NCBI GenBank assembly: GCA_943736015.1
Contig: OX031068.1
Location: 24,436,296 to 24,500,295, forward strand
DNA: 64,000 bases
Direction: 5' to 3'
DNA from: Tridacna crocea
Taxonomy: Eukaryota > Mollusca > Bivalvia > Cardiida > Cardiidae
A program made the translations under genes and the position numbers. The notes below the pieces were generated by a model, which did not search any database, was not told the origin of the DNA, and saw only the letters and a list, made by a program, of their open reading frames with translations. Shown in pieces: positions 2,414-38,209 of the stretch (the stretch's first letter is position 1; each line of letters opens with the position of its first letter).

Positions 2414-2829
2414 TTACCTGTATTGCCGCGAGGTGATATATACTATGAGAATGAGGAGTATAACACACACCAATGCTAAAGTAACACCAAGTAGAATTCT
2501 TAAATCATTCAATCCTACGTTCTTGAAACCGTCTTGTTTAACGCGTGAGGACGGAGATGGTGAGGTTGGAAAATCATCTTTACTTGTCTCCCTTGTTGAT
2601 AACACAGGTTTAGTCGCCTCCCCTGGTCTATGTATGGACGTTTGAGGTTCTTCAGAACTTGAAACAATATCTGTAGTCGTCGCATTTGTTACAGTAACAT
2701 CTGAGGTCGTTTTACTTGGTTCGGTTGTTGTTGTAGGTTGGGCAGTTGAAGAAAGATTGAATTTAGGTAGTTGTACTGAGGAATTTGCTGAAGAAGAAAA
2801 CACTTTTAACCGTTGTGACGCTCGTACTG
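2414..2829 (-). CDS. Gene A exon 4: Ser/Thr stalk, transmembrane helix, short tail
   Basis: Acceptor TTTCTTAG at 2830, then 138 codons in phase 1. The first ~85 residues are rich in Ser, Thr and Pro with sequons NSS, NLS and NAT, expected to be O-glycosylated. A hydrophobic helix follows (ILLGVTLALVCVILLILIVY) and a tail ITSRQYR. The stop TAA overlaps a perfect splice donor (TACAG|GTAAAT), so the tail could be longer in a spliced form. No continuation exon was recognised in 1-2413. Confidence 0.78.
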
Positions 2830-5800
2830 CTAAGAAATCAAAATGGCAATAAAATACAAAATTTACACTCTATTTTTGCTATTTTATCGTAAATATTAAT
2901 ACACCAATTAAATGACAAAATCTGATACAAAACGTGATTGGTCAAATACAATTTAGGGGCCTGAGACACAATGGCGTGTATTATCCGGCCATTTCGTAGC
3001 CCTTGTAGGTTAATCGGTAATAAATGGTCAACGCAGGCTGACATGGGTTAATCCTTATTAACCCTTTACCCCATAAGGCATATCTATGGTATTTCTAGTT
3101 GATCCTAAATAACAGCAAGGATGAAGCTGAACATTTCTTATGTGTATATGATACCTTTTGATAGCATAGAAAACACTGTGGCAAAAGGTGAAATTGCTCG
3201 TTACGAGCAATTTCACCTTTTGCAACAATGTTTTCCAAAGGCTCCTACAAGCAATGTGTAGAAATGAGTATCTATGGAGTAAAGGGTTAATACTGATCAG
3301 CTTTCTGCATGTCCAACGACCATTCTACCTCATGATTTAGTCAATTTTTTTTGTTCAAACAAAATTGACTTTATGGATTCATAGTTACGTGATAACTTGC
3401 TTGCTTTAATGGACCACGGAGATTCATTTAACCCTCTTTTGCCAAAGCATAATCTAGATATCGTCGATTTTCTTCGAAAACCTCGTAACTACAGCTTGTA
3501 ACAAGCTGTAGTTACGAGGTTTTTTAACCTTTTACCACCCAATCCCGACTTTTATCGACCCTGAGAAAGAAAGCCTTGAAAACATTGTGCGAAAAGGAGA
3601 AAATGCAGGTAACCAGCATTTTTCCTTTTCCCACAATGTTTTCAACCCTTTCCAAACCAAATCTTAATATTTGATTCACATTTATTTTGTCGCCTGCAAA
3701 TGCTTTTAATTTGGACTAGTCTAAAATTTGTCGTTTGGTAAAGAGTTAAGTAAACCGACGATATATTCAACGGCTGAAAATGCATCCTAACGAGACCTGA
3801 AAGATGTTCATCCTATAGCCTATCAAAAATCTTGAACAAACTATCGGACAGTATAGATCAAAGATCAGACTGCACGTTTTGTGAAGTCTGATCTTGATCT
3901 ATGCCGTCCGCAAAGGTCACTGCCTTTTGCTTAACTCTTTACCAGACGACAAAAATTTTAGCCTTTTCCAAATTGAAAGCATTTGCAGACGACAATTTAA
4001 ATTTGACTCAAATAATGGAATTTGATCTTGACAGGGTTCAAAACATTGTGGGAAAAGGAGAAAATGCTGGTTACCAGCATTTTTTCCTTTTCCCACATTG
4101 TTTTCAAAAGGCTTCTTCCTCAATGGTGTTAAAAGTCGTCATTGTGTGGTGAATGGTTAAAGCGCCGAGAGTCTTATTCAACGAACCGCTTCTAATAGAA
4201 ATACCAATCAGACTATAGCAACATCAAGGCTGTGTGACCACAATGTCTTACATAGCAGTTGAAGATTCAGATATAAGATCAGACTGGATGCTCTGTGCAA
4301 TCTGATCCATGCCCTCCACAAAATGGAAGAAAAAAATGTGCTTTGCTGTTGAAAGGTGAAGACTGAATTACACAAGTTTACCGAAGCAGATCCTGGTTGA
4401 AAAAGGAACAACTGGATTATCAAACACCAGGAAACCATTGCACGTCTTAATTTGCATAGGCTGGGTCATTCTCGTGCAGCAGCCCTGGCTGGTACTTATA
4501 CACAATGACACATTCGTCATGGTTCCTGGCTGTGTAGGAATACGATCTGTGAAGAAAGGTGTATTTTACAATTCTAAAATCAACAACCACGTGTTTTAAA
4601 TGCCCCTAAAGAAGAGTTTTCTTTTTTTTTTCAAAACATTGTCGGAAAAAGAGGAAATGCTTGTAACATTTTGACATTTAACTTTCTGGGAGAAACATGT
4701 CCCATCATCTAGGCCATCTTTAATTTGTCTTATGCAGTTGCTCTGTATTTAGACAGTATATTTAGAATTTTTGTCTGGTAGCAAGATTACAGAAACTAAA
4801 AGCTTGTCAAAATAAATTTAACAAGAAAATATTGATGCGTAACTTCAATGGCGCCGCAAATCAGTTGTTTCTGAAATAAGGCACATTTCTTACATCTTTC
4901 AAAAAATGACCAATGCAAATTTATGCAGAACTCGATGAGAAATGAACTGAGAACCCCTAGATAATCTGTAGAATGCAACTCAAAACTTCAAAAAGAAAGA
5001 ACCAATAATGATAAGACACAATCATCTAGCTTCTAAATTACCTAATTGATATTAAAAACAGGTTATGAAATGATCAAAGTGGTTACGAAATTATAGAAGT
5101 GAGTACAAAATGATCAAAATAAAAAGTAAATTTGGGTACGAAATGGCTTATGAACGGAAAGACCTAGTTACGAAATGGCTGCCTCCATAGGTACTTTTCA
5201 AAAGCGAATAAAAATATGGCGCCGCCGCTCATGCGGCGCAACAACAAGAGGCAAAGCACCTGACTGAAGGACGGATTCTTAAATTGGTTTTAAAAATGCA
5301 TTTTCAACGGTACTTCAGTTATATATCACAGAGGTCGATGTGACTGTTCAAGCTTTTCTTCGAGTTCATTAACCCTTTACCACACAACCCTGACTTTTAA
5401 CAATCCTGAAGAACAAAACCATTTGAAAACATTATAAGACAATTCTCTCCATTTGAGCCACGTTAAAATTATCGCCTGCCACTGCTTTCAATTTGGACCA
5501 GTTTTACATTTTTGTCGTTTGGTTAAAGGTTAACCATATTTCGGACAACACAATATCTCGGTCACTGGACACTTTCTCACATTAACAGTACAGTAGAATT
5601 TGAGCCATAGTCTCGCAAACGTGATTTAAAAGCATCTTCTTAATGCATCGTACGAAGTAATTTATCGAATAGTTATGAATCTACAAAACACATTTTGTCC
5701 ACCGTTGAAACTTTTTTGCTATCGGTCAAAACTTTACATGTGAAAGGACCAATTTACGTAATAATCCAGTCGGTTGTGGATCTATAATTATGTGATGAGA

Positions 5801-7195
5801 TGCTAGCTGTAGTGCAACACTGAGATGCAGGCTATCTATTTTTGCCATAGCGCGGTTCAAGTAGACTTTCGCAAACAGGAAAACAGAGTAGAAGATTGCA
5901 TTTACTAATTGTGTGTTTGCAAGAATAGTTCACAACACAGCGGATTCTGCAGATTCAAAATTAACCCTGTGCCAAACAATCCTTGGTTTTTACGACCCTG
6001 AGATGGAGGTTTTTTTGAAAATATTGTGGGAAAAGGAGAAATTGCTGGTAACCAGCATTTTCTCCTTTTCACACAATGTTTTCTATCCTGCTTGAAGCAA
6101 ATTTCAATTTTTGAATTATGCTTATTTTGTCGTCTGCAAGTGCTTTCAATTTGGACAAGTCTAAATTTTTGTTGTTTGGTAAAGGGTTAACACTTGTATT
6201 ATCTGACAACTATTGGGCCTTTAAAGCTTGCCTTTTATCCAGATCTGTTGATCGCAGCCGCACTGGGGACTAGTTGGACACGTGGTTGTGATAAGACCGC
6301 TTTGTGTTGCCACAAATCTTGTCCATCCAACTGGGATTCGATTGCTTCTGCACAATGTGGACGTCTGGTTATAGTCTGTTATCATAGTAGTGTCGTTCAC
6401 GGCTGTATAGTTACTGCACGGGTCATTCTGACATAAGACTGGGTAAAAGATACAGATTATTAGGCCTATATAGTGAAGTTTGACAACTAAAAGTATACAA
6501 TAGGTTTTGAATTTAAACGTGAACGAAAATTAAAAAAATGACGAAAATGACATGATGAAAAATGGAAACCGTATTTCTCTATTAACATCTTGTACAGTAT
6601 TTTCAGAATTAGGTTTCAGTTTGCATATACATGTATGGTGACTAGATTGGTATGATGTAGCACCGAGGTGCATTAAAACCTGCCCCCCCCCCCCCCCTCC
6701 CCCGTTTTGCGAAAGCACAACTCATTTAACTTTTTACCAAACAACAAAATTTTAGACTGGTCCAAATTGAAAGCATTTGCAGACGACAAAATAAACGCGA
6801 CTCAAAAATTGAAACTTGACTTTAGAAGAGTAGAAAACATTGCAGGAAAAGGAGAAAATGCTGGTTACCAGCATTTTCTCCTTTTCCAACAGTGTTTTCA
6901 AAGGGCTTCTAAAAGGTTGTAAAAACCAGGAATTGTTTGGTAAAAGATTAAAATATGTTACTTGTGTACCGATGCATTATGTCCATTGTGCAAATGTCGA
7001 GAAATAAAAAAGATAACTCATTTAGATATAAGATTAAGATCGATTTTCATGATTCTAACTCTTACATTCACAATGAAAAAAGTAGCAATGAAACAACACT
7101 TAAAAAGTCGAAGACATTTTTTTTTTTGACAAAATCACACTACTAACGTTACCTTTCCTGGCCTGCAGGACGATACACAACAATAAAAGAAACAT
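2414..7195 (-). CDS. Gene A: D8C-domain type I membrane glycoprotein (4 exons, complete model)
   Basis: Spliced model: exons 7195-7153, 6438-6232, 4546-4382 and 2829-2414 on the minus strand, every intron in phase 1. The protein is a 14-residue hydrophobic start (MFLLLLCIVLQARK), a cysteine-rich D8C domain in two halves (starting at NDPC; second half with GCC and ending RICF), a Ser/Thr/Pro stalk, and a membrane helix (ILLGVTLALVCVILLILIVY) with a short basic tail. D8C is the domain of uromodulin, GP2 and OIT3, secreted or surface glycoproteins of which GP2 binds bacteria; no zona pellucida domain follows here. I infer a small, probably O-glycosylated cell-surface protein exposing one D8C domain. 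It is the leftmost of a same-strand family (B, C, D). The second intron has a GC donor. The last codon before the stop forms AG|GTAAAT, so a further tail exon is possible. Confidence 0.8.
3058..3290 (-). mobile_element. TTAA MITE family F3, complete
   Basis: Founding description of F3: TTAA at both ends, terminal ACCCTTTACCCCATAAGG and GGAGTAAAGGG, and a central palindrome CATTGTGGCAAAAGG-type stem with loop GCTCGTTACGAGC. About 230 bp. Other copies: 43759, 45474, 58008 and a left-truncated one at 63255. Its stem resembles that of F1 but the flanking arms are unrelated. Confidence 0.85.
3424..3770. repeat. Hairpin repeat F9 interrupted by a MITE
   Basis: ACCTCGTAACTACAGCTTG and its inverse form a perfect 40-base hairpin at 3479-3521. 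The MITE 3524-3749 sits in it; the uninterrupted relative at 8300-8395 reads straight from the hairpin into TTAATAAACCGCCG, giving an empty site at TTAA. Confidence 0.7.
3524..3749 (-). mobile_element. TTAA MITE family F1, complete (type description)
   Basis: F1 is the dominant repeat of the window, about 225 bp: TTAA at each end, terminal CCCTTTACCAMAC inverted for about 12 bases, one arm reading CAGACGACAAAATAAA and the other CTACTTTTGACGCCC, and a near-perfect central palindrome of about 65 bases made of GAAAACATTGTGGG, AAAAGGAGAAAATGCTGG and their inverse. No coding capacity. TTAA duplication and CCCTTT ends fit piggyBac-like or Kolobok-like non-autonomous elements. Strand given is that of the CAGACGAC arm. 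Confidence 0.88.
3846..3925. repeat. Hairpin repeat F2 (type description)
   Basis: Core is a palindrome of AGATCAGACTGCACG and CGTGCAGTCTGATCT flanked by GGACAGTGYAGATC and its inverse. Full copies (38572-38774, 11885-12097, 32848-33062) extend to TTAACCCTTA and GGATAAGGG ends, so F2 is probably a further TTAA MITE. This copy is only the core, abutting the F1 copy at 3931. Confidence 0.75.
3931..4160 (+). mobile_element. F1 MITE, complete
   Basis: TTAACTCTTTACCAGACGAC to GAATGGTTAA; full central palindrome. In intron 2-3 of gene A. Confidence 0.88.
4265..4335. repeat. F2 hairpin core, diverged
   Basis: AAGATCAGACTGGATGC opposite GCAATCTGATCC. Lies directly next to gene A exon 3 on its 3' side. 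Confidence 0.5.
4382..4546 (-). CDS. Gene A exon 3: D8C domain, C-terminal half
   Basis: Between a TTCACAG acceptor and an AAC-containing GTAAAC donor lie 165 bases, phase 1 at both ends. It encodes RIPTQPGTM, then CISTSQGCCTRM, QIKTCNGFLVF, and ends FSTRICF. The C-x(6)-CC...IK-C..F pattern is the second half of D8C (uromodulin-type C..CC..IxVKxC). The cysteine before the end, present as PCTRLCF in genes B and C, is replaced by PFSTRICF here, balancing the extra cysteine in exon 2. Confidence 0.82.
4780..5255. repeat. Duplicated block, second copy at 36810-37395
   Basis: Shares AACAAGAAAATATTGATGC, CGCAAATCAGTTGTTT and GGCTGCCTCCATAGG with 36.8-37.4 kb. The part 5060-5180 is a loose tandem of TACGAAATGGYC words. 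Both copies lie in or beside D8C genes. Confidence 0.75.
5369..5533 (-). mobile_element. F1 MITE lacking the central palindrome
   Basis: Both TTAA ends and arms are present, but the hairpin is replaced by GAAAACATTATAAGAC; an internal deletion of one stem arm. Confidence 0.8.
5961..6190 (-). mobile_element. F1 MITE, complete, 41 bases past gene A exon 2 donor
   Basis: TTAACCCTGTGCCAAACAAT to GTAAAGGGTTAA. It lies within the intron that uses the GC donor, so insertion so close to the splice site was tolerated. Confidence 0.87.
6232..6438 (-). CDS. Gene A exon 2: D8C domain, N-terminal half
   Basis: Acceptor CCCAG at 6443-6439, then 207 bases in phase 1 encoding NDPCSNY, a VNDTTM turn, GWTRF, and CPTSPQCGCDQQIWIKG. 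DPC, GW-RF, CP..QCG and IW are the hallmarks of the first half of the D8C domain and align with exons at 18409-18618 and 27639-27842. The donor is AAAAG|GCAAGC, a GC-AG intron; the two paralogous exons use GTAAAT at the same codon position. There are five cysteines here against four in the paralogues, the extra one being in QCGC. Several N-x-T/S sequons. Confidence 0.85.
6675..6705. repeat. Homopolymer C tract
   Basis: About 15 C followed by TCCCCC; intron 1 of gene A. Confidence 0.9.
6726..6951 (+). mobile_element. F1 MITE, complete
   Basis: TTAACTTTTTACCAAACAAC to TAAAAGATTAA; in intron 1 of gene A. Confidence 0.86.
7153..7195 (-). CDS. Gene A exon 1: signal peptide
   Basis: ATG at 7195-7193 opens MFLLLLCIVLQARK, a compact leucine-rich signal sequence, and ends in phase 1 at a GTAACG donor (AAA G|GTAACG). 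This fits the phase-1 acceptor of the D8C exon 715 bases downstream. Too short to appear as an ORF; recognised because hydrophobicity, phase and donor agree. The upstream promoter could not be defined. Confidence 0.7.
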
Positions 7196-15800: not shown

Positions 15801-16004
15801 TAACCGATAAAAACGACAGGCTTTTAGAATTACTTTCTTGCTTATTTTAAACTGACGAATTTTACTTATTAATTCATTTTATCCAATTGTATTCAAGCGT
15901 TTCGGAAACTACCAACAGAAACTTTCCTTTGCAATATATATATCTTTTTTTGTTATTATTTCATTATAAACTCCAATTTTAAGGAGGTTGTTCAAACTAT
16001 TCTC

Positions 16005-16227
16005 TTAACTCATTACCAAACGACAATATTTTGTCCAAATTGAAAGCATTTGCAGACGACAAAATAAACGTGACTGAAAATTTGAAATTTGTTTTGTAAA
16101 GAGTAGAAAACATTGTGGGAAAAGGAGAAAATGCTGGTCACCAGCATTTTCTCCTTTTCCCACAATGTTTTCTGAAGGCTTCTTTCTCATGGGCGTCAAA
16201 ATTAGGGATTGTGTGGTAATGGGTTAA
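16005..16227 (+). mobile_element. F1 MITE, complete, inserted at the gene B stop codon
   Basis: TTAACTCATTACCAAACGAC to GTGGTAATGGGTTAA. The right TTAA (16224-16227) supplies the TAA of gene B's GTT TAA; the other TTAA is at 16005-16008. Confidence 0.88.
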
Positions 16228-16786
16228 ACGATATTCTGTGGTCGAAACACAGTTTTGCTATTTGTATCTGAGCGTATTAGGCCTACTCTACTTCCCCGGT
16301 ATAAACGATATCCAAAATAAGCTACCAACACAAGTAACACACAATCGACTATGGCGCCTAAAATTACAAAAAGAGTCATCAGGTTATTCCGACGCTTGCA
16401 CGCATCATTTTTGCTTTTTCGATCAACAACTGGTCGAGCTTTTGTACAGTTTTGTTTATTTGAAAGGTTCCCCACCGTAGCAGATGAAATTACATTCTGT
16501 CGCGGTACCGTCGTCTTACCATAAGGCACCGTTAATTGTGTTGTAGTATGTAGTAAATTTGGTGTTGTTTGTGGTACTGCAGTTATCGTAGACGTTTGTA
16601 TGTAGGTCGATGGTAGTAATGATACACTTGTTGAAGCAACTGTTGGCTTCAGAGCTGGACTGGTCGTAGAAGTGTGCCCTGCAGTAGTAGTTGTGATGGT
16701 TGTGGTAGTAGTTTTTGCAGTTGTCGTTGTTGTCGTTGTTGTTGTTGTGGACGTCGTTGATGGCGTTGTTGTTACAGTTAAGTCAC
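16224..16786 (-). CDS. Gene B last exon: mucin-like Thr stalk, TM helix, cytoplasmic tail
   Basis: 187 codons from acceptor ATTTCAG, phase 1. Begins GDLTVTTTPSTTSTT and runs into a nearly pure threonine tract, then Ser/Thr/Pro/Val sequence with NLS. A basic CKRRNNL segment precedes the helix LMTLFVILGAIVDCVLLVLV, and the tail YRLYRGSRVGLIRSD follows to QNIV. The stop is GTT TAA, whose TTAA is the target site of the MITE at 16005-16227. The poly-Thr tract is a threonine-codon microsatellite and may vary in length. Confidence 0.82.
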
Positions 16787-18618
16787 CTGAAATATTATAG
16801 TAACTGACATGAAACACGCGAAAAGGGGTATTCGGGCATTTGCGAAAAGTGTTGTCTTGGATCAGCATGCACAGTCTGCACAGGCTAATCATAAACGAGA
16901 CTTTAGGTTTTTATGTAGTTTCCTGTTTTTGCGGAAGTCCACTGAAGAACAAAATCTAATATAGATGTAAAGTGCCACCTTGGATCAGCCTGCGCAGAGT
17001 ACGCATGCTGATCCGAGACGACAATTTACGCAAATGTCTGAGTGCCCCTTTTCACGTGTTGCAGGTCATATAAATATGATATGATAATGTATTCCAAGAT
17101 ACTATCAGAGATTTCAACATAAGTCCATCATGGAAAGAACATTTTGAAGCTTGCTGGTTGAACAATCATGAAAGAGAAGATGGTTCGCTAAAAATATTAT
17201 GCAATATTTCCAGACACACGGACTGGCCGAAAGACATACGACAGACACCAAGCATGATATGACTTTAACCAATAGGGCAAAACACAAACAAATGTTGCTA
17301 AGCAAAGTGAAAGTATTTCAATACTCACGAAAGCATAGACGGGTGCATGGTCGTAATGGCTGAAGATAAAACGTAATAAAACTTGTGCAGTTTTTGACTT
17401 GAAGGCTTGTTTGTTGTCTGCAACAATTCGTCTGGTCTTTGAGACATACAGGTATTGGTTTTATACCATCGGATGTACTTGGAATTGGCCCTAAAACATT
17501 TGTATCAGTAAGATGATTTTTTGGTTCTGTTCTGTTCTTAACAGTTGTATTTTTATACTATCTCATATTTGACATTAAATGGCAAAACAGATGAGGAATT
17601 TTTGAATGTGCGCAGACGGTTAGCCTCTAACATTTGTCATCGGTTAATCAAAGGCCATGGTAAATACATGTATTGTGTCTACAGAGGGACGCATAGGATG
17701 ACATAAGATCCGCTTACGAATAATCACTTGTTTTTGCCGATTGGGGTAGATTTACCTTTCTCGTGTCTCTGTCTTTGTTTATTTTGGAGACAATATTAGG
17801 CCTTCTTAAAAAAAGAACTAATTCTAGTATTATAGAATAAAGCAAGCAAGTAAAGAACTAAATAAGATGCTAGCTTTTGTATTGTCAAGACTTAACTCTT
17901 TACCAATGACCAAATTTTTGACATTGTAGAATGAAAACATTTGTATCGAAAACAAATTACAAAGTAATATAATTATGATTTCTGTCTCTGAGGGATTAAA
18001 AACAGTGTGGGGACATGAGCAAATCCGAATAAAATGTACTGAAAATGGTTTAGCTCAATTCTCTTTTTTACTCAAGCAGCTTGATTTTTTCAATTCTTCA
18101 ATTGTACCCCAGACTGCACACAATACTGTTATGGCGAGATAAACAAGGATTTTTGGGAGGAGGGGATTCGCACTGCTGCCTTCGTGTGAACATACGTCAC
18201 ATAATCAGCGTCTATGTCAAACTTTCTTGCATAGCTTCAGGTGCTGTATCCCACACCTTTTCGAGTTGTTCTATTGAAGGATGTATAGTAAGACGTGAAA
18301 ACCCCGCAAACGTTAAAGTGGTGTTCTAAAACTTTGCTTTTGAACAAGTTTTGGGGTAAAAAAAATCTTCATTTCGACAAATATGGTTCAAATTGATTAG
18401 CGATTTACCGTTCATCCATATTTGTTTATCTGTTCCACACTGGTTTCCTGTCGGACAAACGCTTGATAATACTCCATCTGAGTTGCCTATAAATCGGTAC
18501 CATCCTTGAGAGCCTAGCGGTGTACAAATGGGAGTATTACTCGTGTAACTTGTCAGTAGTGTTGTGTCATTCAAGGACTGATAGGTAGTACACGGATCCG
18601 GTGTCATCTGTCCATGTG
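16224..18618 (-). CDS. Gene B: D8C-domain membrane glycoprotein (3 exons found, start exon uncertain)
   Basis: Exons 18618-18409, 17490-17329 and 16786-16224, all introns phase 1. Product: D8C domain with ten cysteines (DPC, IC, VC, QCG; VC, NCC, NC, PC, LC), a threonine-rich mucin-like stalk, a membrane helix and a ~30-residue cytoplasmic tail. The D8C domain is closest to gene C by eye; the tail type matches gene A. An in-frame ATG upstream of exon 1 (ORF start 18664) gives a weak hydrophobic leader (MKLVRSVITYLA), so either that is the start or, as in gene A, a separate signal exon lies further right; a candidate is at 22675-22621. I infer a surface glycoprotein. The stop codon coincides with the insertion site of a MITE. 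Confidence 0.75.
16812..17064. repeat. Palindromic repeat F6 (type description)
   Basis: Ends AACACGCGAAAAGGGG and CCCCTTTTCACGTGTTGC, two internal hairpins of CAGCCTGCGCAG-type with inverse. In an intron of gene B. Others: 34476-34686 and 40790-41025. This motif style is common in heterodont bivalve genomes (recollection, not checked). Confidence 0.75.
17329..17490 (-). CDS. Gene B exon: D8C C-terminal half
   Basis: 162 bases with acceptor TGTTTTAG and donor TTTC|GTGAGT, phase 1-1, the same length as gene C's exon at 26593-26754. Encodes IPVCLKDQTNCC, LQVKNCTSFITFYLQ, PLRPCTRLCF. LQVKNC..F..FYLQP..PC..LC is the consensus end of the D8C domain. Found by comparison with gene C rather than as a long ORF. 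Confidence 0.87.
17890..18010 (+). mobile_element. Decayed F1 MITE fragment
   Basis: TTAACTCTTTACCAATGACC start and a GAGGGATTAAAAACAGTGTGG stretch; no palindrome left. Gene B intron. Confidence 0.45.
18409..18618 (-). CDS. Gene B exon: D8C N-terminal half
   Basis: 210 bases, acceptor TTATTTAG, donor AACG|GTAAAT, phase 1-1. Encodes MTPDPCTTYQSLNDTT, then ICTPLGSQGWYRFIG, CPTGNQCGTDKQIWMNG. The GWYRF and QCGT..IW motifs match vertebrate uromodulin D8C closely. Four cysteines. Confidence 0.88.
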
Positions 18619-19612: not shown

Positions 19613-19987
19613 TGGACCCATATCGTTTTTTCTTCAACAGATGACGAAGATTTTAGGTTTGATCTGTTTTAGGATGAAAGAACTTTTATCGCTAGGCATA
19701 CTCATACTTGACGTCTCTCTCTCGATATTCTGTCATGCAAGATCCCAAATTTTCCCACCCTGGTCGAAGCAAATACGAGTTCCATGGTACAACTTTATAT
19801 AATTACTACTTAATATTCTAAATGTAGTGAGACGTTACAAAGTAACAAACAAAAAAAAAAACCTACAATAAGGGGCAGTACATTGATAGAAACTGAAAGA
19901 CCATTCAGGTACAAAACAGAGCAATACCCTAGAGACAGAATATCCAAACTTATTTTATGACGACAAACTTTAAGGATAAAAAAACCT

Positions 19988-21147
19988 GGGTCTGTTTTCA
20001 TCAACCATTCTTAAAACCATTCTTTGTCTTATTCTTCAAAATTTGTCAATGTGAAAATAACAGAACTTTTGATTGGCTAAACCAAATGGCAAGACCGTTC
20101 TTTGTCTTATTCTTCAAAATTTGTCAATGTGAAAGTAACAGAATTTCTGATTGGCTGAACCAAATGGCAAGACCGTTCTTTGTCTTATTCTTCAAAATTT
20201 GTCAATGTGAAAGTAACAGAACTTCTGATTGGCCAAACCAAATGGCAAGACCGTTCTTTGTCTTACTCTTCAAAATTTGTCAATGTGAAAGTAACAGAAC
20301 TTCTGATTGGCCAAACCAAATGGCAAGACCGTTCTTTGTCTTATTCTTCAAAATTTGTCAATGTGAAAGTAACAGAACTTCTGATTGGCCAAACCAAATA
20401 GCAAAACGATTCTTTATCTTATTCTTCAAAATTTGTCAGTGTGAAAGTAACAGAACTTCTGATTGGCCAAACCAAATGGCAAGACCATTCTTTGTCTTAT
20501 TCTTCAAAATTTGTCAGTGTGAAAGTAACAGAATTTCTGATTGGCTAAACCAAATGGCAAGACCGTTCTTTGTCTTATTCTTCAAAATTTGTCAGTGTGA
20601 AAGTAACAGAACTTCTAATTGGCTAAACCAAATTGTAAGACCGTTCTTTGTCTTATTCTTCAAAATTTGTCAATGTGAGAGTAACAGAACTTCTGATTGG
20701 CTAAACCAAATGGCAAGACCGTTCTTTGTCTTACTCTTCAAAATTTGTCAATGTGAAAGTAACAGAACTTCTGATTGGCTAAACCAAATGGCAAGACCAT
20801 TCTTTGTCTTACTCTTCAAAATTTGTCAATGTGAAAGTAACAGAACTTCTGATTGGCTAAACCAAATGGCAAGACCATTCTTTGTCACACTGTTCAAAAT
20901 TTGTCAATGTGAAAGTAACAGAACTTCTAATTGGCTAAACCGAATGGCAAGATCATTCTTTGTCATATTCTTCAAAATTTGTCAATGTGAGAGTAACAGA
21001 ACTTCTGATTGGCTAAAACAAATGGCAAGACCATTTTTTGTCTTTTTTTTCAAAATTTGTCAATGTGAAAGTAACAGAACTTCTGACTGGCTAAACCAAA
21101 TAAGACAAAGAACGTTCTTATAAGAATGGTTGGTGAATACAGACCCC
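19988..21147 (+). repeat. F5 foldback expanded into 14 tandem 78-bp units
   Basis: The two ends are the F5 termini (GGGTCTGTTTTCATCAACC and GGTTGGTGAATACAGACCC). Between them one F5 arm is repeated 14 times at exactly 78 bases, each with TTCTTTGTCTTATTCTTC and CTTCTGATTGGCTAAACC. Because 78 is divisible by three, one frame is open for 388 codons (26-residue repeat such as FFVLFFKICQCESNRTSDWL); I regard this as a by-product, not a gene. Confidence 0.9.
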
Positions 21148-21196
21148 GAACACTTTATGCCGAGTCCACTAGCTCAGTAAGGTAATATACAGGGCT

Positions 21197-21757: not shown

Positions 21758-22192
21758 AAAAAAGGAAAAGTATGAATGAGTGCAGTGACCGACACAATAT
21801 TACTGAACTGGTGTTGAAATGGCAAGAAACGTCATGCATACAAATAAACAAACATATAAATCAATTAGATTTTTATCATAACGTGGCTTAAACTGAAATG
21901 TAATAAAGATGTAAAATTACATAACAATGTCATTGACCACGTTTCGTGACGCTATAATTATTATTAGTAGTAGTAGTAGTATTTAGACAATACAGAGAAT
22001 GAAAAGAGTACGTACAAAATGGTCAAATAAATGTACCTTTGGTGGTAAAAAAAGTAAAAATGAAAATCCAAAACTTCCTTCTATGCTTTCTGTCGTCCAT
22101 CGTGTATTTGGTGAGGCGCATACGATTAAGGTAGCGAAATGCCCGATATCAGTTGTGTTTGGTGTATACATAGTTCTTATCAAGATAAAGGG

Positions 22193-24440: not shown

Positions 24441-24527
24441 ATATGTGACACATCACGCAAAAAGGGACCTTCTGCGAAATCTGAACATCAATCGGATGAA
24501 AACAGATCAACGAAGGTGCAGATCAAT

Positions 24528-24708
24528 TTAAGTTGATAATTAAAAAATGATTGTATAACAAGGTACAATGACTACTTTCTATACAGAAAATGTCATTAAA
24601 GCGAAAAAGTGTCAACACTGATCAGCCTGCCCAATTCGCGCAGTTTGACCAGGGTTAACACTTTTCGCAGTTCCCGGAAGGTTCCTTTTTGCGTGATGGG
24701 TCACATAT
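24528..24708. repeat. F7 palindromic repeat, part of a duplicated block
   Basis: AAGTTGATAATTAAAAAATG to GCGTGATGGGTCACATATG. Same position relative to gene C's last exon as 36141-36317 is to locus D. Confidence 0.75.
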
Positions 24709-24795
24709 GCAAAGAGCTTCTAGAGAATTCAGACTCTTGACCAGGTAGATGTAGATTCATCCGCAAAGTTGTTTAGGAAGAATCATAAAAGTAGT

Positions 24796-25024
24796 TTAAC
24801 GCTTTACCACACGAGAAAATTTTAGACTGGTCCAAATTGAAAGCATTTGCAGACGACAAAATAAAGGTGACTAAAAAAAAGAAATTTGTTCTGGAAAGGG
24901 TAGAAAACACTGTGGGAAAAGGAGAAAATGCTGGTATCCAGCATTTTCTCCTTTTCCCATAGCGTTTTCAAAAGACTTCTTTCTTAGGGGCGTCAAAAGT
25001 AGGGATTGTGTGGTAATGGGTTAA
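24796..25024 (+). mobile_element. F1 MITE with a verified empty site
   Basis: TTAACGCTTTACCACACGAG to GTGGTAATGGGTTAA. The duplicate block at 36.38-36.40 kb lacks it: GTAGTTTTAATGATATT there against GTAGTTTAA[MITE]TTAATTAAATGATATT here. Confidence 0.9.
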
Positions 25025-25169
25025 TTAAATGATATTTCTTCAAAGGCTTTCTAGCCTTTTAATTTTTTTACCCTTGAAATGCTGGAACAGTTGTAGTTGT
25101 TTTTGTAGACAGTGTAGATCAAAATCAGACTGTACAAAACATGTATTCTGATCTTCGATTTACACTGTC

Positions 25170-25294
25170 CGCTAATGTGTTACCGAGGCTCGACTCCAAC
25201 CAAAGAAAAAGGCGAATGTGCACGAGGGAAAACAAAACAATTACATCGCACTATCGTCATCCATATTTCATCAGTGTCAAATCGTGCTTCAGGA
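25170..25294 (-). other. Gene C 3' flank, probable 3' UTR, duplicated at 37.57-37.70 kb
   Basis: The sequence just past the gene C stop is conserved with the sequence past the locus D stop (CTCGACTCCAACCAAAGAAA and CAAATCGTGCTTCAGGATTA in both). It carries no ORF of note; taken as 3' UTR and part of the duplicated block. Confidence 0.45.
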
Positions 25295-25497
25295 TTATGA
25301 ACCACAACAAAGGTAGACAAATAGGACGCTTGCGATTGTAAGGACAACTTCAGGCAGGACTGAAGAGGAAGAGGAATAAGCAGTAGTCGTAGTCAGTGGT
25401 TCTGAAGTCGTAAATGTCTCGTTTGTCGGAGAAGCTGTAGATGGAATCATTGATGGGTCAAATGCTGTTGTGGGCTCTGTTGGTGGCACTGCCGTTC
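25295..25497 (-). CDS. Gene C last exon: stalk and GPI-like hydrophobic C-terminus
   Basis: 67 codons including the stop, acceptor ATTTCTCAG, phase 1. Residues from TAVPPTEPTTAF to TTTTAYSSSSS form the stalk; LPEVVLTIASVLFVYL is the terminal hydrophobic stretch, ending CCGS. The length (about 15) and the absence of charged residues after it favour a GPI signal over a spanning helix; this is inference. Confidence 0.78.
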
Positions 25498-27842
25498 CTG
25501 AGAAATGTAAAGGTAAATGACGTCATATTTCCATCTGGTTGTGAGGCACGTGCAATTCATCTAGGCAACAAGAACATGTAAATCGGTTTTTTCACTGGTC
25601 GTACCAGTGTAATATCGAAAAATATTTTCACTGCTATTTCTCGATATCCTACTAGAAAACATGAAATAGACTTGAATATTTATCATTTATCAACACCTTT
25701 TCTGAAAATTCTTATCTTACCCTTAGAAATAAACTTTAAAAAAGAACAGGTAGTCTACAGTAACTTGTTCTTAACATTTAAGGACGCAAAGAAAAAAGAA
25801 AACAGCTGTCCTGTCTTGGGTCCCAAAGTTCCAATCTAACGTTGCCGAATGGATGTTCAGGGGTGAGAGAAAAATTCAGAGGAATTAAATCATAGGTATT
25901 GAAGATAACAACTTTTTACGCTTCTCATAACTATCCTCGCTTTCAATGTTTTCTTTTACCACTAATATAAAAAAAAATTCTAGCACACACGAGATAGCAG
26001 ACTTTTGAAACCATTGTGAGAAAAGGCGAAAATGCTGGTAATACAGCTGCGTATTAAACAGAATAGTACCTGATCTGGAACAAATCTGGAATCTGCCTAG
26101 ACCAAACTAATTCTGTCTAGACTAAATTAGGATTCCATTTTGGCTTGGCAGCTTAACAATCTGCGCAAACCAAACTGGAATATTTTGTCATTGAATATAG
26201 TGTGACTACATATAAAGCATCTTATTTAACTTAAATTACAGAATTAAAGAAGTTTTAATCAGAAATCGAGAGTAAGAAGAATTTTTAAATGTTGAAAACG
26301 GAGCAATTGTGTAAAAAATACAAGTAAATTGCTTTAATTAAAAATGCCTCTCAGTTGTAAACATATGTGGACTAATATGATTAAATAATTTTAGAAAACA
26401 ACCCATTTTGGTCTAGACAAAATTGTAATTCTAATTAGGTCAAGTCAGATTCTGGATATGCCTAGATTCCAATCTGGCCTACGACATGTGCATTGCTATC
26501 CATGTAATATGCATGTGTAGCCTAGTCTAAGTTAGTCTATAGATACAGAAAGTTGTTAGTAAGCAGTCATACGAGATACCACCAATACATACGAAAGCAC
26601 AGTCTGGTGCATGGTTGTTGAGTACTAAGATTAATAACTATAAAGTCTGTACAGTTTTTTATTTCAATGTTATTTGCTCGGATACAACAGTGTCCTTGAT
26701 CCGCCATACAAATCGAGACTTGTGTACTATTATCCGTTATGCTTGGAATAGTTCCTGAAAAAGAGAGCATACACTGTGTAATGCAGGTTGGGACTTATAC
26801 TCATATAGCTGCATGTAGCTGCTTGTTGCAGCCAACTATATATTGGTGTTTGCTGGCTGACTTACACTAAGGGTTGGGGCAAAATGAGGAATAACCCCAA
26901 AAGACTTTTTACATTTAGTTTCATGTTTTTTTAATTCTATTTCACACATTTTATAAGACGATTTCGATCACCATCCATAGTGTCATGGTTCAACATCCAG
27001 TAGCATTGTGGCTAACCGATTATCAGCCTGGCCCAATGATATTCTAGAACTGTGTCAAGATAAGGTAATTACCTTATTTCCAGAAACCTTTACACTTTTT
27101 TTCGAACGGTTTTCTAATTGTAACCCTTACGACTCAATATTTCCACACATACGTAAACTTGGACGGTTTACTTTTCAACTTATTTTCGAGGTAAAATCAA
27201 TACGGACCCATACAACAAACCCGACTATTTTTTCGTGGCAACATATTTACAAAATTACTATGGAAGCTTAAGGAATATTGATTGAAAAAATGGGATTATA
27301 TTACAACAGAAAAAATCATCTGCACTTTTTTCTCCAGAATCAAACATCTCTTATTATTTAAACATCACGCAGAACATACTGGTGAAAGGAGCGTGATTTC
27401 GAGATTGTAATTGCTTTTGCTGCAGTACTCAGCTTGGTAAAATGCCAAAAGGCATTAAGTCATGCTTATGTTTATTGAGCATAACACACATGTATCAGTC
27501 TATAGGCTTGAATAGATTTTAAAGTGCATGTCGCGGAAACCTAGTGAAGTTAACCTATTGTCTCGATATTCTGCTTATAAATCCGGGTTTCGTTGCAAAA
27601 TCATCTTTTCGATCTGACGGATTCGAAGAAAGATTTACCGTTCATCCATACTCTTTTATTGGTTGTTCCACACTGGCTGTCTTGAGGACAGACGTTTGAT
27701 AGTAGTCCATCTGGGTTGCCTCCAAACCGGTACCATCCTTGAAAACTCTGCCGTGTACAGTTGGTTGTACTGTTCGTGTAACTTGTCAGCATCGTAGTGT
27801 CATTCAAGAACAGGTAGGAGTCACATGGATCTTGTCCTTGTA
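25295..27842 (-). CDS. Gene C: D8C-domain glycoprotein with GPI-like tail (3 exons found, 5' end missing)
   Basis: Exons 27842-27639, 26754-26593 and 25497-25295, phase 1 throughout. Product: a D8C domain closest to gene B, a Ser/Thr stalk of about 50 residues, and a short hydrophobic C-terminus (VVLTIASVLFVYLCCGS) with no basic tail after it. Small residues (SSSSSV) precede it by a few positions, the layout of a GPI-attachment signal; vertebrate uromodulin and GP2 are also GPI-anchored. The signal-peptide exon was not found in the repeat-rich 28-37 kb. Its last exon and 3' flank are duplicated at 37.6-38.2 kb. Confidence 0.74.
25990..26041 (-). mobile_element. F1 MITE fragment
   Basis: GACTTTTGAAACCATTGTGAG then AAAAGGCGAAAATGCTGG only. 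Gene C intron. Confidence 0.5.
26042..26540. repeat. Possible old inverted repeat in gene C intron
   Basis: TCTGGAATCTGCCTAGACC near the left and GGATATGCCTAGATTCCAA near the right are loosely inverse, with GTCTAGAC words between. Weak. Confidence 0.35.
26593..26754 (-). CDS. Gene C exon: D8C C-terminal half
   Basis: 162 bases, acceptor CTTTTTCAG, donor TTTC|GTATGT, phase 1-1. Encodes GTIPSITDNSTQVSIC, DQGHCCIRANNIEIKNC, TDFIVINL, QQPCTRLCF. Six cysteines in the expected C..CC..C..C..C pattern. Confidence 0.87.
27639..27842 (-). CDS. Gene C exon: D8C N-terminal half
   Basis: 204 bases, acceptor ATTAAAG, donor AACG|GTAAAT, phase 1-1. Encodes QGQDPCDSYLFLNDTTML, then NCTRQSFQGWYRFGG, CPQDSQCGTTNKRVWMNG. 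Four cysteines in the gene B spacing, with NDT and NST sequons. Confidence 0.87.
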
Positions 27843-30086: not shown

Positions 30087-30994
30087 TCCCTCTATGTGGC
30101 GGCAAACCTAAATAATGCGTTTGTTCGAAAAAAAATATTTTTTCGTCTGATGCTTTCTGAAAGTATAGAAATAATTGTGAAGATGGCAATCTGTTTATAT
30201 ACAGTCTGTTTAAGTGTATGTCGCTGGCAGAAAACGAAGTTTAAAACGCGGAAAAAGGTACACTAAGGATTGAGCCACTCGACAACTTTTGATCTATTGT
30301 AAAAATTCTTTTTTGAGCGACTAATACCTGAACCGACCAAACACTAACAAATTGTCGTCTTCCAAACAATTTCCACACGTCTAAATGATATGAATTAAAT
30401 GCATTTTAACTCATATTATTGCCTACTTTGGACTTTCTTGAAATTCCTTATTTAATGTCTTAACAAAAAAGCTTCATCTGAATATTTTGGTCTTCCGCGT
30501 TGCATTGATTCAGACATCAGATTTTAACCGGAAAGATCTGTAGTATCAATACTGGTCACGTCTGAGTGTACTTTGGCAAAGAACTGCATAATCTCGACCA
30601 AGTACAGGTGAAACCCAGGAAAAGTGATAAATAGGTGAGATGTCAGTGTGATGCGACTATAATTCTGTTGAAGAAAAAGTGAAACCGAATTAAATGAAAA
30701 CAAACAAGCAATTAGACTAACAAACCTTTGACAAGGAAAAAAATAGTAATTAATATCCAAACATTTCGTGTGCACGCCTTTCCTTCCATTGCTAGTCTGG
30801 TGTGGTGCATCCTTGAGATGGAAAGGCCTATTTATCAAAGTACTGGAGAGTGCTTGAAAAGTTATCACTCGAAGTATTATAATAACTCTTTCAGAGCCAA
30901 AAATATAACTCAACATCTATTGAAGGCTGAAAGCACAATAATTAACTGCAACTGAGAATACTTCTTATCACACAGGCTTGACTAAACAAGTGGA

Positions 30995-31070
30995 GGACAA
31001 AGGTCAAGATCAGACTGCACTATCTGTGCAGTCTGATCTTGATCTATGCCGTGCATAAAAGCCCCTGTTT
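30995..31070. repeat. F2 hairpin core within SD1
   Basis: GGTCAAGATCAGACTGCAC and GTGCAGTCTGATCTTGATC perfect inverse. Confidence 0.7.
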
Positions 31071-32021
31071 TCGCCTAAGGTAATGAAAGGTTGAAAAAAA
31101 AAAGTTACACAGATTTGAAATTTACCCTTATCCCACCAAACGAGACCGTGCATATTTTTCTAAGTACTGACAAAGATCAGACTGTAAATAAGTGCAAAAT
31201 GATCTTAATCCATGTTCACCGCTTTTTTGTGAACGGGTTCAGCCACATCACATCCATTAAAAAGTCCATAAAAGGAATAAATTGTATATGTTCGTGATAG
31301 TCAATAATTAAAATTTAAGCATGATTTGGGTTAATCTAAACAATGATACTCATCTTGTTAAAGCCTTTTCAAGATGACAAAATTTTAGAATTATCAATGT
31401 GAAAGAATCTGCAGACGATAAATTCAATGTCATTCAAATAATGACTTTTTTCTTGGGAACTTGGGAAGGGAATAAAACATCGAAGGAAAAGAAGATGATT
31501 TTGGTAACCAGGGCCGTTAACAAACGGAATTATGTGGTAAAGGGGTGTTTAACAGTATGAGGAAAGAAAATGATATCACACAAAGTAGATGCTTCCTTTC
31601 TCTAAAACTTTTAAAGATCACATAAAATTTCATTTATTTATTTCCTTTTTTCCTCCTTTTTGGTGGTTTTAAAAAAAAACTTCAATGAAGTATGCCTAAA
31701 ACTCATGTTTGTTTAGCTACTTATCATTAAACAGTATTCGGTTTGTTTTAGAGACATTATCGAACATGGTCAATTTTATCTTTTAAAGCGTGATAAAAGC
31801 AACTTATTTTGCACTCATCCCGATTACATTTCAAAAACATGTACTGACCCGAAGTATTGAGAAGCAAGAGGATCATAAGCACGCTGTATCTGTCTTCGGA
31901 CCAAAGAGGTTGGCTGTAACTTACTTTGACTGTGACAATTATCCACCGTAGAACTGCTAGCCACTCATCGCCATACGGAAATAGCAAAAGCATCGTTAAT
32001 GACATAGGAATGTCTTGGTTT

Positions 32022-35282: not shown

Positions 35283-35710
35283 AGCCTAGTTTTAAAATGC
35301 ATTTTTCCTAAGCGACTTGTCTGACGACATATTTGGCCAAAAGAATCTTTCTCTTATAAGCTTTAGTGTTCTGTCTTTCCCTGGTTGACCAACATCATTA
35401 TCCAACCCTTTTAACACATTATTCTAGTAGCAACTGGATATTACTAACTTTTCAACCTTGCTATCATTGTGCATCACCACACGGAATAGTACACCTCTTT
35501 TCATCTTCAGGCTCTTAAAGTTCTTTCTCAGAAGCAAATCTTCATTTGTATGGTTATACTTCGGTGTGAATTTATTTATCACCGCTTTCCTGTATCTGTC
35601 TAGCGTTGGATCTTTTCTGTCTTTGTCGTATTTCTGATATTTTATGGCGAAAATTTTACAAAAATGCAAAAAAATGCAAAAAAATTCATCCTCATACTCG
35701 CAAACCATTC
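35283..35710 (-). mobile_element. Ty3/gypsy-type LTR retroelement fossil, pol fragment
   Basis: Minus-strand similarity to the stretch of Ty3-type pol between RNase H and the integrase zinc-binding region (RKDPTLDRYRKAV, LLLRKNFKSLKMKRGVLF). No LTRs, gag or reverse transcriptase were seen nearby. It is a broken, isolated remnant of about 0.4 kb. Confidence 0.7.
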
Positions 35711-36665
35711 GACAACAAGAGAAATTAGAGATTTACTATGGCCCAGGTCGACACCAACGGGAGACACATTCTATTTTTACATGTGTAATTTGCTCATTTA
35801 CATACAGGAACTACACAGACGAAGCTTCGAACATGGCGTCTGAAGAAGACATAATGGACATGTTACATGTTTGTTATGTAATGGAATTTTAAGCGTTATT
35901 AGTCACGTGTAAGTCACTTGACATTCCCACAATGCTTTTTTGATTTTTGGCACGAAATCTAAAAATAGCTTAAGAAGCTACGTAGCATTTATAGGGAATA
36001 CCATCAAAACAGTGTTTTTTTTTTTTGTAATTTTATGAGTCTCACTTATTGGTGATTTGTATTGTTTTTTCATATATATTTCAGTGATATATATATATTT
36101 TAATTTGGTTAGATGTTAAAAACCTAAATACCCACTTTTAAGTTGATAATTCAAAAATGATTGTATAACATGGCACAATGACCACTTTTCATACAGAAAA
36201 TATCATTAAAGCGAAAAGTGTCAATCCTGGTCAGCCTGCACGAATTGTGCAGGCTGACCAGGGTTGACACTTTTTGCAGTTCCCAGAAGGTCCCTTTTTG
36301 CGTGATGGGTCACATATGCAAAGAGCTTCCAGAGAGACTTTGACAGACTTATGACCAAGTAAATGTAAATTCATCTGCAAAGTTGTGTAAGTAGTTTTAA
36401 TGATATTTATGCGAAGGCTCTCTAGCCTTTTAAATTGTTTGACCCTTGAAATGCTGGAACCAGCTTTAGTTGTTTTTGTAGACAGTGTAGATCAAAATCA
36501 GACTGCACAAAACGTGTATTCTGACCTTCGATTTACACTGTCTGCAAATGTGTGACAAATTCTAGCTAAAACTGTCTTTAAATAGCAAAAGTTCAGGTAT
36601 TTTTCTGTCAGAAAAAAGAACTAATTTATAAAACCAGCGGTCTTTGCGCTGGCACTGTTTTCAAC

Positions 36666-36764
36666 AGTAGCTCAATACCAGCGCTTTCTCATTTTCCTAC
36701 AATGTTTTGAAAGGCTTATTTGGTCAGAGTCGTTAAGACTCGGGATTGTAAGGGAAAGGGTTAA
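36666..36764 (+). mobile_element. F1 MITE, right half only
   Basis: CCAGCGCTTTCTCATTTTCC to AGGGAAAGGGTTAA. Confidence 0.65.
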
Positions 36765-36809
36765 TTACACATGGCAAGTAGAGCATCGAAGGAAATTAAA
36801 TAATAATTG

Positions 36810-37395
36810 TCGTTGCTAAAGTGAAGTTCTCATTTTCAATAAGTCAACAAGAAAATATTGATGCATAACATCAAAGGCACCGCAAATCAGTTGTTTGTGA
36901 AATAAGGCACATGAAAGCATTTCAAATTAACCAAAGTAAATTCATGCATTACTAGGTGAGAAATGAAATGAGAAGTCCTAAACAATCCATAGAATGCACA
37001 TTTAAAAACTTAAAAAACAACAACAACAAAGAATCAATAATTGTAAAAGACATTCATAGCCATTCCTCAGCGAATTTTAACATAATTTCAATTGGAATTA
37101 TGTAGAAAAGGAGTTGTCATTGAAACAACCCAAGAAAATAGTGTTAAAACTAGGTTCTAAATTACCAAAATGATAAAAAAAAAAAAACTGAGTATGAAAT
37201 AACCAAAGTGGGTGCAAAATGGTCGAAAATAAAAAGAATAGGTGGATACGAAAGGACCAAAAACTGTACGAAATGGCCTAGGTACGAAATGGCCCAGTTA
37301 CGAAATGACTTGAAGACGAGTAAACAATATAGCTGCCTCCATAGGTACTTTTCAAAACCGAATAAAAACATAGTGCCGCTGCTCATGCGGCGCCA
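36810..37395. repeat. Duplicated block, partner of 4780-5255
   Basis: Includes the TACGAAATGGCC word cluster at 37190-37310 and CTCATGCGGCGC near the right end. Confidence 0.75.
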
Positions 37396-37697
37396 CAATG
37401 AAAGGCTTTTAACATTTGAGTTTTAAAAAGTGTAAGAATTACGTTTCAGGCCTTCGAAATTAAAAGAAAATAAAAAATCATCACTCATTCAATTTATTTG
37501 TGATGTGAAAGTACCCTTTCTTGCAAAGACTCCTGCAAAGTTTCGAATACTTGGACTGTTTGCCGTGTGCGAGATCGTTAATTTACCGAGGCTCGACTCC
37601 AACCAAAGAAAAAGGGAGACATGTACGAAGGAAAATAAAAAAATTATATCACACGATCTTCTTCTATATTTCATCAGTGTCAAATCGTGCTTCAGGA

Positions 37698-38209
37698 TTA
37701 TGAACCACAACAAAGGTAGACAAATAGGACGCTTGCGATTGTAAGGACAACTTCAGGAAGGACTGAAGAGGAAGACGAATGAGCAGTAGTCGTAGTCAGT
37801 GGTTCTGAAGTCGTAAATGTCTCGTTTGTCGAAGAAGCTGTAGTATATGATTCAAGCGCTGTTGTGGACTCTGTTGGTGAGATTGTCGGTGATGTAGCTG
37901 TAAATGATGACCTAGTCGCATTTGGTGTTATGGACGTCGATGCTGTCGTGCTTGGTGTTATAGACGTCGATGCTGTCGTGCTTGGTGTTATGGACAGCGA
38001 TGTTGTCGCATTTGGTGTTATGGACGCCGATGCTGTCGTGCTTGGTGTTATGGACGCCGATGTTGTCGCATTTGGTGTTATGGACGCCGATGCTGTCGTG
38101 CTTGGTGTTATGGACGCCGATGTTGTCGCATTTGGTGTTATGGACGCCGATGCTGTCGTGCTTGGTGTTATGGCCGTCGATGCTGTCGCATTTGTTGTTA
38201 TGGACGTCG
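37698..38209 (-). pseudogene. Locus D: orphan last exon of a gene C paralogue with mucin minisatellite
   Basis: Acceptor TTTTATCAAG then 170 codons in phase 1, ending in the same stalk and GPI-like tail as gene C (SSSSSVLPEVVLTIAS, then VYLCCGS and stop). Between acceptor and tail sits a Thr/Ser/Ala repeat of ten residues, about ten copies, alternating ITPNATTSAS and ITPSTTASAS. No D8C exon was recognised to its right up to 48 kb, so it is either a partial duplicate or a gene whose 5' exons are diverged or distant. The frame is fully open, so it could still be used; 'pseudogene' is the cautious label. Confidence 0.55.
37912..38205. repeat. 30-bp coding minisatellite (60-bp higher-order unit)
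   Basis: About ten tandem 30-bp units, alternating two types so that the clearest period is 60 bp. Read on the minus strand in the frame that continues into the GPI-like tail it gives the mucin repeat; another minus frame and a plus frame are also open because 30 is a multiple of three. Confidence 0.9.

Follow-up and report, generated by a model that had tools for sequence, protein, structure and literature searches.

Passages of PMC8930769 report that the ten cysteines of the D10C domain pair as C1-C8, C2-C9, C3-C6, C4-C10, and C5-C7, and that the glycan bound by FimH sits at N275 of uromodulin (UMOD) and at N65 of GP2. In the decoy module of these proteins, it is a high-mannose N-glycan located at the groove. 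Zebrafish has a tandem cluster of D10C genes, one of which protects against E. coli (PMC11415648). For Nematostella, passages of two reports describe a uromodulin-like transcript that is induced by wounding (PMC4229989) and two uromodulin-like transcripts that rank with the most highly expressed of nematosomes, bodies able to engulf E. coli (PMC4877951).

The present study concerns a 64,000-nucleotide stretch of Tridacna crocea DNA (the window), whose minus strand carries four last exons (A, B, C, and D) and six D8C half-exons arranged in three pairs; the domain that a pair encodes is more precisely a D10C. On balance, we lean towards four tandem minus-strand genes, A to C with a single D8C and D without one, in which the D10C head would serve as an adhesin decoy or microbe-binding receptor. 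Like UMOD and GP2, genes B and C have the ten-cysteine D10C pattern, and predicted N-glycan sequons fall at the N65- or N275-equivalent position in A and C; a GPI-type end as in UMOD is also predicted in C. In contrast to UMOD and GP2, the genes as modelled here are without EGF and ZP modules and would present one domain on a mucin-like stalk, and A and B end in a transmembrane helix rather than a GPI signal. Furthermore, the D8C exon directly follows the signal-peptide exon in the models of A, B, and C, which therefore lack the β-hairpin with its own disulfide that precedes D10C in the UMOD/GP2 decoy module (a missed exon is possible). LZP/OIT3 and VWDE are multi-domain proteins of a different architecture. 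They share the same D10C domain, as aligned in PMC8930769.

The teleost omcin cluster resembles our locus in its tandem D10C genes and copy-number turnover, and omc5 is predicted to be GPI-anchored with a variable number of D10C domains; however, passages of PMC11415648 give omc5 an EGF IV, a ZP module, and five D10C domains, whereas a gene of our locus has at most a single D10C. Omcins combine D10C and ZP in a tandem cluster, of which our locus has the cluster and not the ZP. The Nematostella genes may be compared as invertebrate, uromodulin-named, and linked to wound or immune cells; the source passages do not mention D8C.

Gene models

Complete in-frame models of A to D were assembled by reading exons and splice sites in the window, all of them on the minus strand. 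The first-pass annotation of this DNA had described four same-strand last exons and three sets of two D8C half-exons joined throughout in phase 1. All of these were recovered, the last exons at the positions given there and the half-exons, for which it had no coordinates, at those listed below, and phase 1 holds at every internal join of the predicted exons, qualified by a GC donor in exon 2 of gene A and a weak donor in exon 3 of gene C. Genes A, B, and C are read as four-exon genes, encoding a signal peptide, one D10C domain that would be split across two symmetrical phase-1 exons, a Ser/Thr/Pro-rich, presumably mucin-like stalk, and a membrane end. Self-comparison for the first exons was swamped by repeats, and a signal-peptide scan found candidates instead. 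Upstream of B, C, and D, these are mutually homologous 28-codon exons with phase-1 donors.

Gene B comprises the signal-peptide exon (22037..22121), the first and second D8C halves (18409..18618 and 17329..17490, from the profile search and gene model), and a last exon (16224..16786) for a Thr-rich stalk, a transmembrane helix, and a basic cytoplasmic tail of ~25 amino acids. Its exon 1 passed the relaxed scan only; by homology to the exons of C and D, it ranks third of 551 ATG-started open 28-mers and was equalled in 0 of 20000 shuffles. Gene C, by the same evidence, has its signal-peptide exon (MHHTRLAMEGKACTRNVWILITIFFLVK) at 30726..30810, found by the scan and by homology to B and D, its D8C halves at 27639..27842 and 26593..26754 (the latter with the weak donor, score 0.8), and at 25295..25497 an exon for a short stalk and a GPI-like hydrophobic end (LPEVVLTIASVLFVYLCCGS).

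Gene A is the least regular of the models. Profile search and gene model place its D8C halves at 6232..6438, with the GC donor AAAAG/GCAAGC, and at 4382..4546, and its exon 4 (2414..2829) encodes a Ser/Thr-rich stalk, a transmembrane helix, and a very short tail. The TAA stop of exon 4 sits within a strong donor, CAG/GTAAAT (8.7), so this may not be the last exon of gene A. The candidate exon 1 (7153..7195; predicted signal peptide MFLLLLCIVLQARK, phase 1 end) comes from the candidate scan only, with a donor score of 7.7; it differs in sequence from those of B, C, and D, and no homologue of it was found in the window. At the same thresholds, the remaining minus-strand phases yielded 6 and 4 donors and the three plus-strand phases 2, 2, and 6, and donors above 7 also occurred in plus-strand phase 0 (n = 2). 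That the scan gives chance candidates as well counts, with the missing homologue, against the model of gene A. An alternative in-frame ATG lies upstream at 7228.

By eye, A and B show the type I transmembrane pattern, a helix followed by basic residues. C and D end in SSSSSVLPEVVLTIASVLFVYLCCGS, their last 25 residues being free of basic ones, and present the small-residue region, hydrophobic end, and missing cytoplasmic tail of a GPI-type C terminus. The division into transmembrane (A, B) and GPI-like (C, D) types made in the first-pass annotation is thus supported; the membrane end would be a transmembrane helix for A and B and a GPI-like signal for C. Along (A,(B,(C,D))), the two kinds of end need one change only.

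Since the D10C domains of UMOD and GP2 are accompanied by EGF and ZP domains, the D8C pairs might belong to one or more larger genes whose EGF and ZP parts lie in unrecognised exons or outside the window. We consider this quite improbable: A, B, and C are each flanked by a candidate signal-peptide exon upstream and by an in-frame terminal exon with its stop downstream, and a Pfam scan of the three stop-masked minus-strand frames from 2 to 47 kb gave no ZP or EGF match, although such scans are insensitive to intron-split domains and left the D8C halves themselves unreported. When the exons of A, B, and C were joined, D8C was the only domain that Pfam found, in agreement with the earlier description of stand-alone D8C glycoproteins without ZP.

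The domain itself

On the joined proteins, Pfam PF23283 (D8C_UMOD) matches A with 30.4 bits (4.6e-07) and B with 32.2 bits (1.2e-07), both above the curated cut-off of 27 bits, and C with 22.2 bits (1.6e-04), below it. Human GP2 is the best PDB match for each (A, 1.7e-09; B, 2.6e-14; C, 9.7e-13), and human uromodulin is matched as well. The domain identity first proposed from the letters alone therefore stands. When every stop-to-stop piece of at least 15 amino acids, on both strands of the window, was searched by profile, each D8C half turned up three times and no fourth copy was found.

Read against the pairing given in passages of PMC8930769, all ten D10C cysteines are present in order in B and C. 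Gene A lacks the conserved ninth cysteine in exon 3 but carries two additional ones, and it may therefore fold differently. Between B and C, the D8C dN/dS is 0.32, which indicates that the domain is constrained. A sequon occurs at the GP2 N65 position in A (DPCSNYT) and at the UMOD N275 position in C (INLS), and B has neither. The chance of a sequon by shuffling is 1.5 to 2.7% per site, for a match that is post hoc and concerns two of six sites examined.

Gene D and the diversification of the cluster

Gene D has a signal-peptide exon at 40628..40712 (64% amino acid identity to that of C), found by the signal-peptide scan and homology, and a last exon at 37698..38209, in which 30-bp repeats coding SITPSTTASA/SITPNATTSA precede a GPI-like end almost identical to that of gene C. 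Neither tblastn nor the profile search found a D8C pair for it in the window. The earlier picture of a D8C receptor family with GPI-like members C and D thus fits C; gene D has no D8C exon between its signal-peptide and last exons and is not read as a D8C receptor. It would be a tandem relative of C that kept its signal-peptide and last exons and lacks both D8C exons, and its product may be a small secreted GPI-like mucin built of repeats. As all joins are in phase 1, gene D stays in frame without these exons. Its signal-peptide exon, at 40.63 to 40.71 kb, was absent from the first-pass annotation.

A reading to which we give slightly less than even weight is that D, and possibly C too, is a decaying, non-working partial duplicate that lost its D8C exons and retains the others as relics. 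The want of any D8C half-exon in D agrees with this, as does a C/D signal-peptide dN/dS of 0.47, drawn from just 15 differences. Furthermore, the stalk of D consists of a minisatellite in which more than one frame is open, which makes its open frame weak coding evidence. On the other hand, D has kept its signal-peptide exon, the donor of that exon, and its last exon undamaged and in frame, and the GPI-like end is nearly the same as that of C.

Genes C and D share two blocks. The 3′ block (24527..25295 in C, 36137-37697 in D) is 88.2% identical over 527 noncoding columns, each copy being broken by a repeat insertion. The 5′ block (30552..31945 in C, 40451-42339 in D) is 78.7% identical over 1078 columns in three pieces; it is mostly noncoding and contains the signal-peptide exon. 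Identity is thus higher in the last-exon flanks than in the 5′ flanks (Fisher p 1.8e-6), which suggests that the last-exon block was converted or re-duplicated later than the 5′ flanks. This is the only sign of exchange in the cluster. The 5′ block of D holds another candidate first exon (42336-42213, donor 10.1), which was rejected since its ATG and donor are not conserved in C.

The first-pass annotation had explained the family by swapping of the last exon. However, as a candidate signal-peptide exon and a last exon go with each of A, B, and C, these read as separate tandem genes. Last-exon swapping is thus only partly supported, and gene duplication, through which the family would have diversified, accounts for most of the diversity of the cluster. 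A single transcription unit with mutually exclusive last exons, in which a D8C pair is spliced to either a transmembrane or a GPI-like end to yield one receptor with two forms of anchor, would stay in frame, as every last exon accepts phase 1. It is nonetheless highly improbable: 0.5 to 1.6 kb downstream of every D8C pair lies a last exon belonging to it, every pair has a candidate first exon of its own, and D lies upstream of all D8C exons of the window, out of reach by ordinary cis-splicing. Within the tandem-gene reading, we entertain only tentatively a stronger modularity, whereby D dropped its D8C exons and survives as a minisatellite mucin with a GPI anchor, gene conversion continues to pass the last-exon block between C and D, and head, stalk, and anchor evolve as separate phase-1 cassettes.

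Function

The exons, phases, and homologies, together with the missing D8C of gene D, are direct readings of the DNA, from which we infer the splicing, membrane anchoring, and function of A to D. Genes A to C likely encode epithelial adhesin-decoy or microbe-binding surface glycoproteins. The stalk would hold a glycan-bearing D10C head away from the surface of an epithelium or blood cell, where the head, as a monomer, would serve as adhesin decoy or microbe-binding receptor. Instead of binding microbes, stand-alone D8C proteins might be structural, in epithelial matrix or wound closure, as could be argued from passages reporting a Nematostella uromodulin-like gene induced in wound ectoderm (PMC4229989) and uromodulin among the matricellular factors of adult Nematostella mesoglea (PMC12549020). 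We regard a structural role as unlikely, since the models lack the ZP polymerisation module and hence a filament-forming part, and single heads on membrane stalks seem to fit binding better than matrix building.

If the binding role is correct, the uromodulin/GP2 head would work alone on the cell surface, without the filament-forming ZP module of vertebrates, and the cluster would be a clear case of domain loss via symmetrical exons. It would also bear on whether the use of D10C as an adhesin decoy predates its union with ZP.

Other features of the window

Pfam gave no match on ten other open reading frames of the window, and neither did Rfam and tRNA scans of the window. A MATH match at ~20.2 kb lies inside a 78-bp array, and it was taken as chance or low complexity together with two matches below the cut-off, MbeD_MobD and PF25706 on protein D (E 0.025). 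We also considered whether the stop of gene B was created by the adjoining repeat; copies of that repeat start with TTAA, and the stop may thus predate it.

Exons and predicted membrane ends of the D8C genes

In the first-pass annotation, one strand between 2.4 and 38.2 kb carried four last exons as well as D8C half-exons in three pairs, with every join in phase 1. On the minus strand, the last exons were found at these places, all three pairs are present, and phase 1 holds at each internal join. Profiles of each half of D8C (more exactly D10C, the uromodulin/GP2-type domain) were run with filters off on every open piece 15 aa or longer from both strands of the window. Three copies of each half were recovered, and the next best pieces reached only E 0.31 and 1.3. 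The D8C exons of genes A, B and C (named, like D, by their last exons at 2.4, 16.2, 25.3 and 37.7 kb) are therefore genuine, as the protein matches below also indicate, and a fourth pair was not recognised anywhere in the window. In the Pfam check of the joined proteins, A (30.4 bits) and B (32.2 bits) exceeded the D8C_UMOD cut-off of 27, while C (22.2 bits) alone failed it. The top PDB match was human GP2 for C (9.7e-13), B (2.6e-14) and A (1.7e-09), and UMOD was matched by all three too.

The predicted minus-strand models comprise 7195-7153, 6438-6232, 4546-4382 and 2829-2414 for A (276 aa); 22121-22037, 18618-18409, 17490-17329 and 16786-16224 for B (339 aa); 30810-30726, 27842-27639, 26754-26593 and 25497-25295 for C (217 aa); and 40712-40628 and 38209-37698 for D (198 aa). 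Intron-exon boundaries were called from similarity, phase and simple splice-site scores, and the last base of the C and D models was placed at the stop codon. A, B and C would encode, in order, a signal peptide, a single D8C, a Ser/Thr/Pro-rich stalk (47-56% S+T+P) and a membrane end. This anatomy of the genes, as read, is very probably correct. The two kinds of end proposed previously are borne out: A and B finish with a hydrophobic helix and then basic residues, and C and D with a tailless hydrophobic run, like GPI signals. The last exons of A and B show weak likeness (tblastn E 0.002). Since the stop of A falls within a strong donor (CAG|GTAAAT, score 8.7), exon 4 of A may continue into a further tail exon. 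Two splice sites are unusual: a GC donor (AAAAG|GCAAGC, 6223-6232) closes the first D8C exon of A, and the donor that follows the second D8C exon of C is weak (score 0.8). The GC-AG type donor in A sits where B and C carry GT.

First exons were sought by a scan that required an ATG, a hydrophobic stretch and a GT donor in phase 1. At equal thresholds, 11 distinct phase-1 donors emerged on the minus strand versus 2 on the plus strand; the other phases gave 6 and 4 donors (minus) and 2 and 6 (plus). Thus, as candidates arise in other phases and on the other strand too, a lone one proves little. The candidate exon 1 of A (MFLLLLCIVLQARK|G, 7195-7153, good donor 7.7) came from the scan alone. Those of C (MHHTRLAMEGKACTRNVWILITIFFLVK|G, 30810-30726) and D (MHRTRLAMEGKASARKFWILMAICFIVQ|G, 40712-40628, upstream of the D last exon) also came from the scan, and that of B (MRLTKYTMDDRKHRRKFWIFIFTFFTTK|G, 22121-22037) from scanning the B region with relaxed settings, which gave one donor; all lie on the minus strand. 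The B, C and D signal peptides are equal in length and end phase. Scored against C and D, the B peptide ranked third, behind only C and D themselves, whether the pool was the 551 open 28-mers that start with ATG or all 28,558 open 28-mers (score 94, next best 41), and none of 20,000 shuffles reached its score. Judged by this rank, score and shuffling, together with the shared length and phase, the first exons of B, C and D are homologous. A further phase-1 signal-peptide-like candidate (MCGLMVLIFVISAFYDFYQKK, 56116-56053, minus strand, donor 4.9) bears weak likeness to the transmembrane part of gene A (tblastn E 0.032).

Between B and C, dN/dS across D8C was 0.32 (120 codons, with 69.3 nonsynonymous and 41.7 synonymous differences); A was too distant for dS. 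The signal-peptide exons gave 0.47-0.60 from few sites and are little informative.

A copy without the domain, and the order of the family

The first and last exons of D are homologous to those of C. The one-domain architecture proposed for the whole family stands for A, B and C but not for D, for which no recognisable D8C exon was found in the window. The D first exon stops after codon base one and its last exon opens with bases two and three; the phases therefore fit, and the frame survives omission of both D8C exons. The predicted product has a signal peptide, about 10 repeats of a decapeptide (SITPSTTASA/SITPNATTSA type) and a GPI-like end. Since the repeat is open in several frames, the open frame of D is weak evidence of the predicted coding.

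Two blocks, each broken up by other sequence, are common to C and D: a 5′ one (30.55-31.95 kb in C, 40.45-42.34 kb in D) and a 3′ one (24.5-25.5 kb in C, 36.1-37.9 kb in D). Without gaps, identity was 848/1078 (78.7%) over three 5′ pieces, including the 85-bp signal-peptide exon, and 465/527 (88.2%) over three 3′ pieces of noncoding sequence, a difference with Fisher p 1.8e-6, although some stretches of the blocks look like dispersed repeats and rates could differ. The overlapping last-exon part is identical at 176 of 191 positions. These values are suggestive of a last-exon block younger than the 5′ region, which would fit either gene conversion or that block having been duplicated a second time. 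Of the last-exon swapping envisioned previously, a suggestive sign is seen only between C and D; the D8C and first-exon identities give no sign of exchange between A/B and C/D. D8C identity is 55% for B-C, 38% for A-B and 36% for A-C; first-exon identity is 64% for C-D, 36% for B-C and 32% for B-D. By these identities the family order is (A,(B,(C,D))), on which a single change of end would account for both end types.

Domain features and a proposed role

In GP2, the D10C disulfides are C1-C8, C2-C9, C3-C6, C4-C10 and C5-C7, the domain is preceded by a beta-hairpin, and FimH binds a groove glycan at N65, the corresponding site in UMOD being N275 (PMC8930769). All ten cysteines are kept in B and C. 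In A, C9 is missing and two additional cysteines occur (LCQNDPC and QCGC), so that C2 of A may pair elsewhere. Unlike GP2, the A, B and C gene models leave no room for a counterpart of the hairpin. In A, the N65 position is filled exactly by N-Y-T (DPCSNYT versus DPCQNYT in GP2). C has N-L-S where UMOD has N275 and, at the N232 position, an N-G-T created across a splice join; B has a sequon at neither the N65 nor the N275 position. Cysteine-preserving shuffles gave a 1.5-2.7% chance per sequon site, and two of six sites are filled; this coincidence at the groove sites, being post hoc, is only suggestive.

With its D10C head bearing N-glycans and held at the membrane by an O-glycan-rich stalk, such a protein could act as a surface decoy or microbe-binding receptor, a function that we propose tentatively for these genes. 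Omcins form a tandem D10C cluster, and omc5 mutant zebrafish embryos have lower survival with E. coli (PMC11415648). In Nematostella, a uromodulin-like gene is wound-induced (PMC4229989); furthermore, nematosomes engulf E. coli, and two uromodulin-like transcripts are among the top-expressed there (PMC4877951). From these zebrafish and Nematostella cases we infer the step to the present genes by analogy.

D8C itself is already known. Many genes named uromodulin-like are present in invertebrate genomes, so stand-alone D8C genes probably sit in databases undescribed. In literature mostly outside subscription journals, the titles and abstract openings of the D8C/D10C matches listed make no mention of stand-alone D8C genes, and no match combined D8C with the word invertebrate. 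What sets these genes apart is a known domain without its usual partners, and one copy without the domain.

Repeats in the window

A dense family of ~230-bp palindromic elements with TTAACCC... ends extends across the whole window (e.g., 15993-16234, 24796-25025 and 44113-44347); the TTAA ends are reminiscent of piggyBac-type MITEs. Altogether, 45% of the window (29,089/64,000 bases) resembles another part of it. The stops of A and B adjoin repeat edges, a foldback element from 2413 (contact 2413-2416) and a MITE-like repeat from 16228 (contact 16224-16228), respectively; with repeats this common here, both contacts could be coincidental. A 78-bp repeat array of ~14 copies (19935-21170) lies in the first intron proposed for B; a 396-aa open frame within it is a spurious product of the repeat, and a weak MATH match arises from the same array. 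An integrase zinc-binding fragment (PF17921, ~35.32-35.39 kb, minus strand; 22.4 bits, under the cut-off of 25.5) is probably a retroelement relic.
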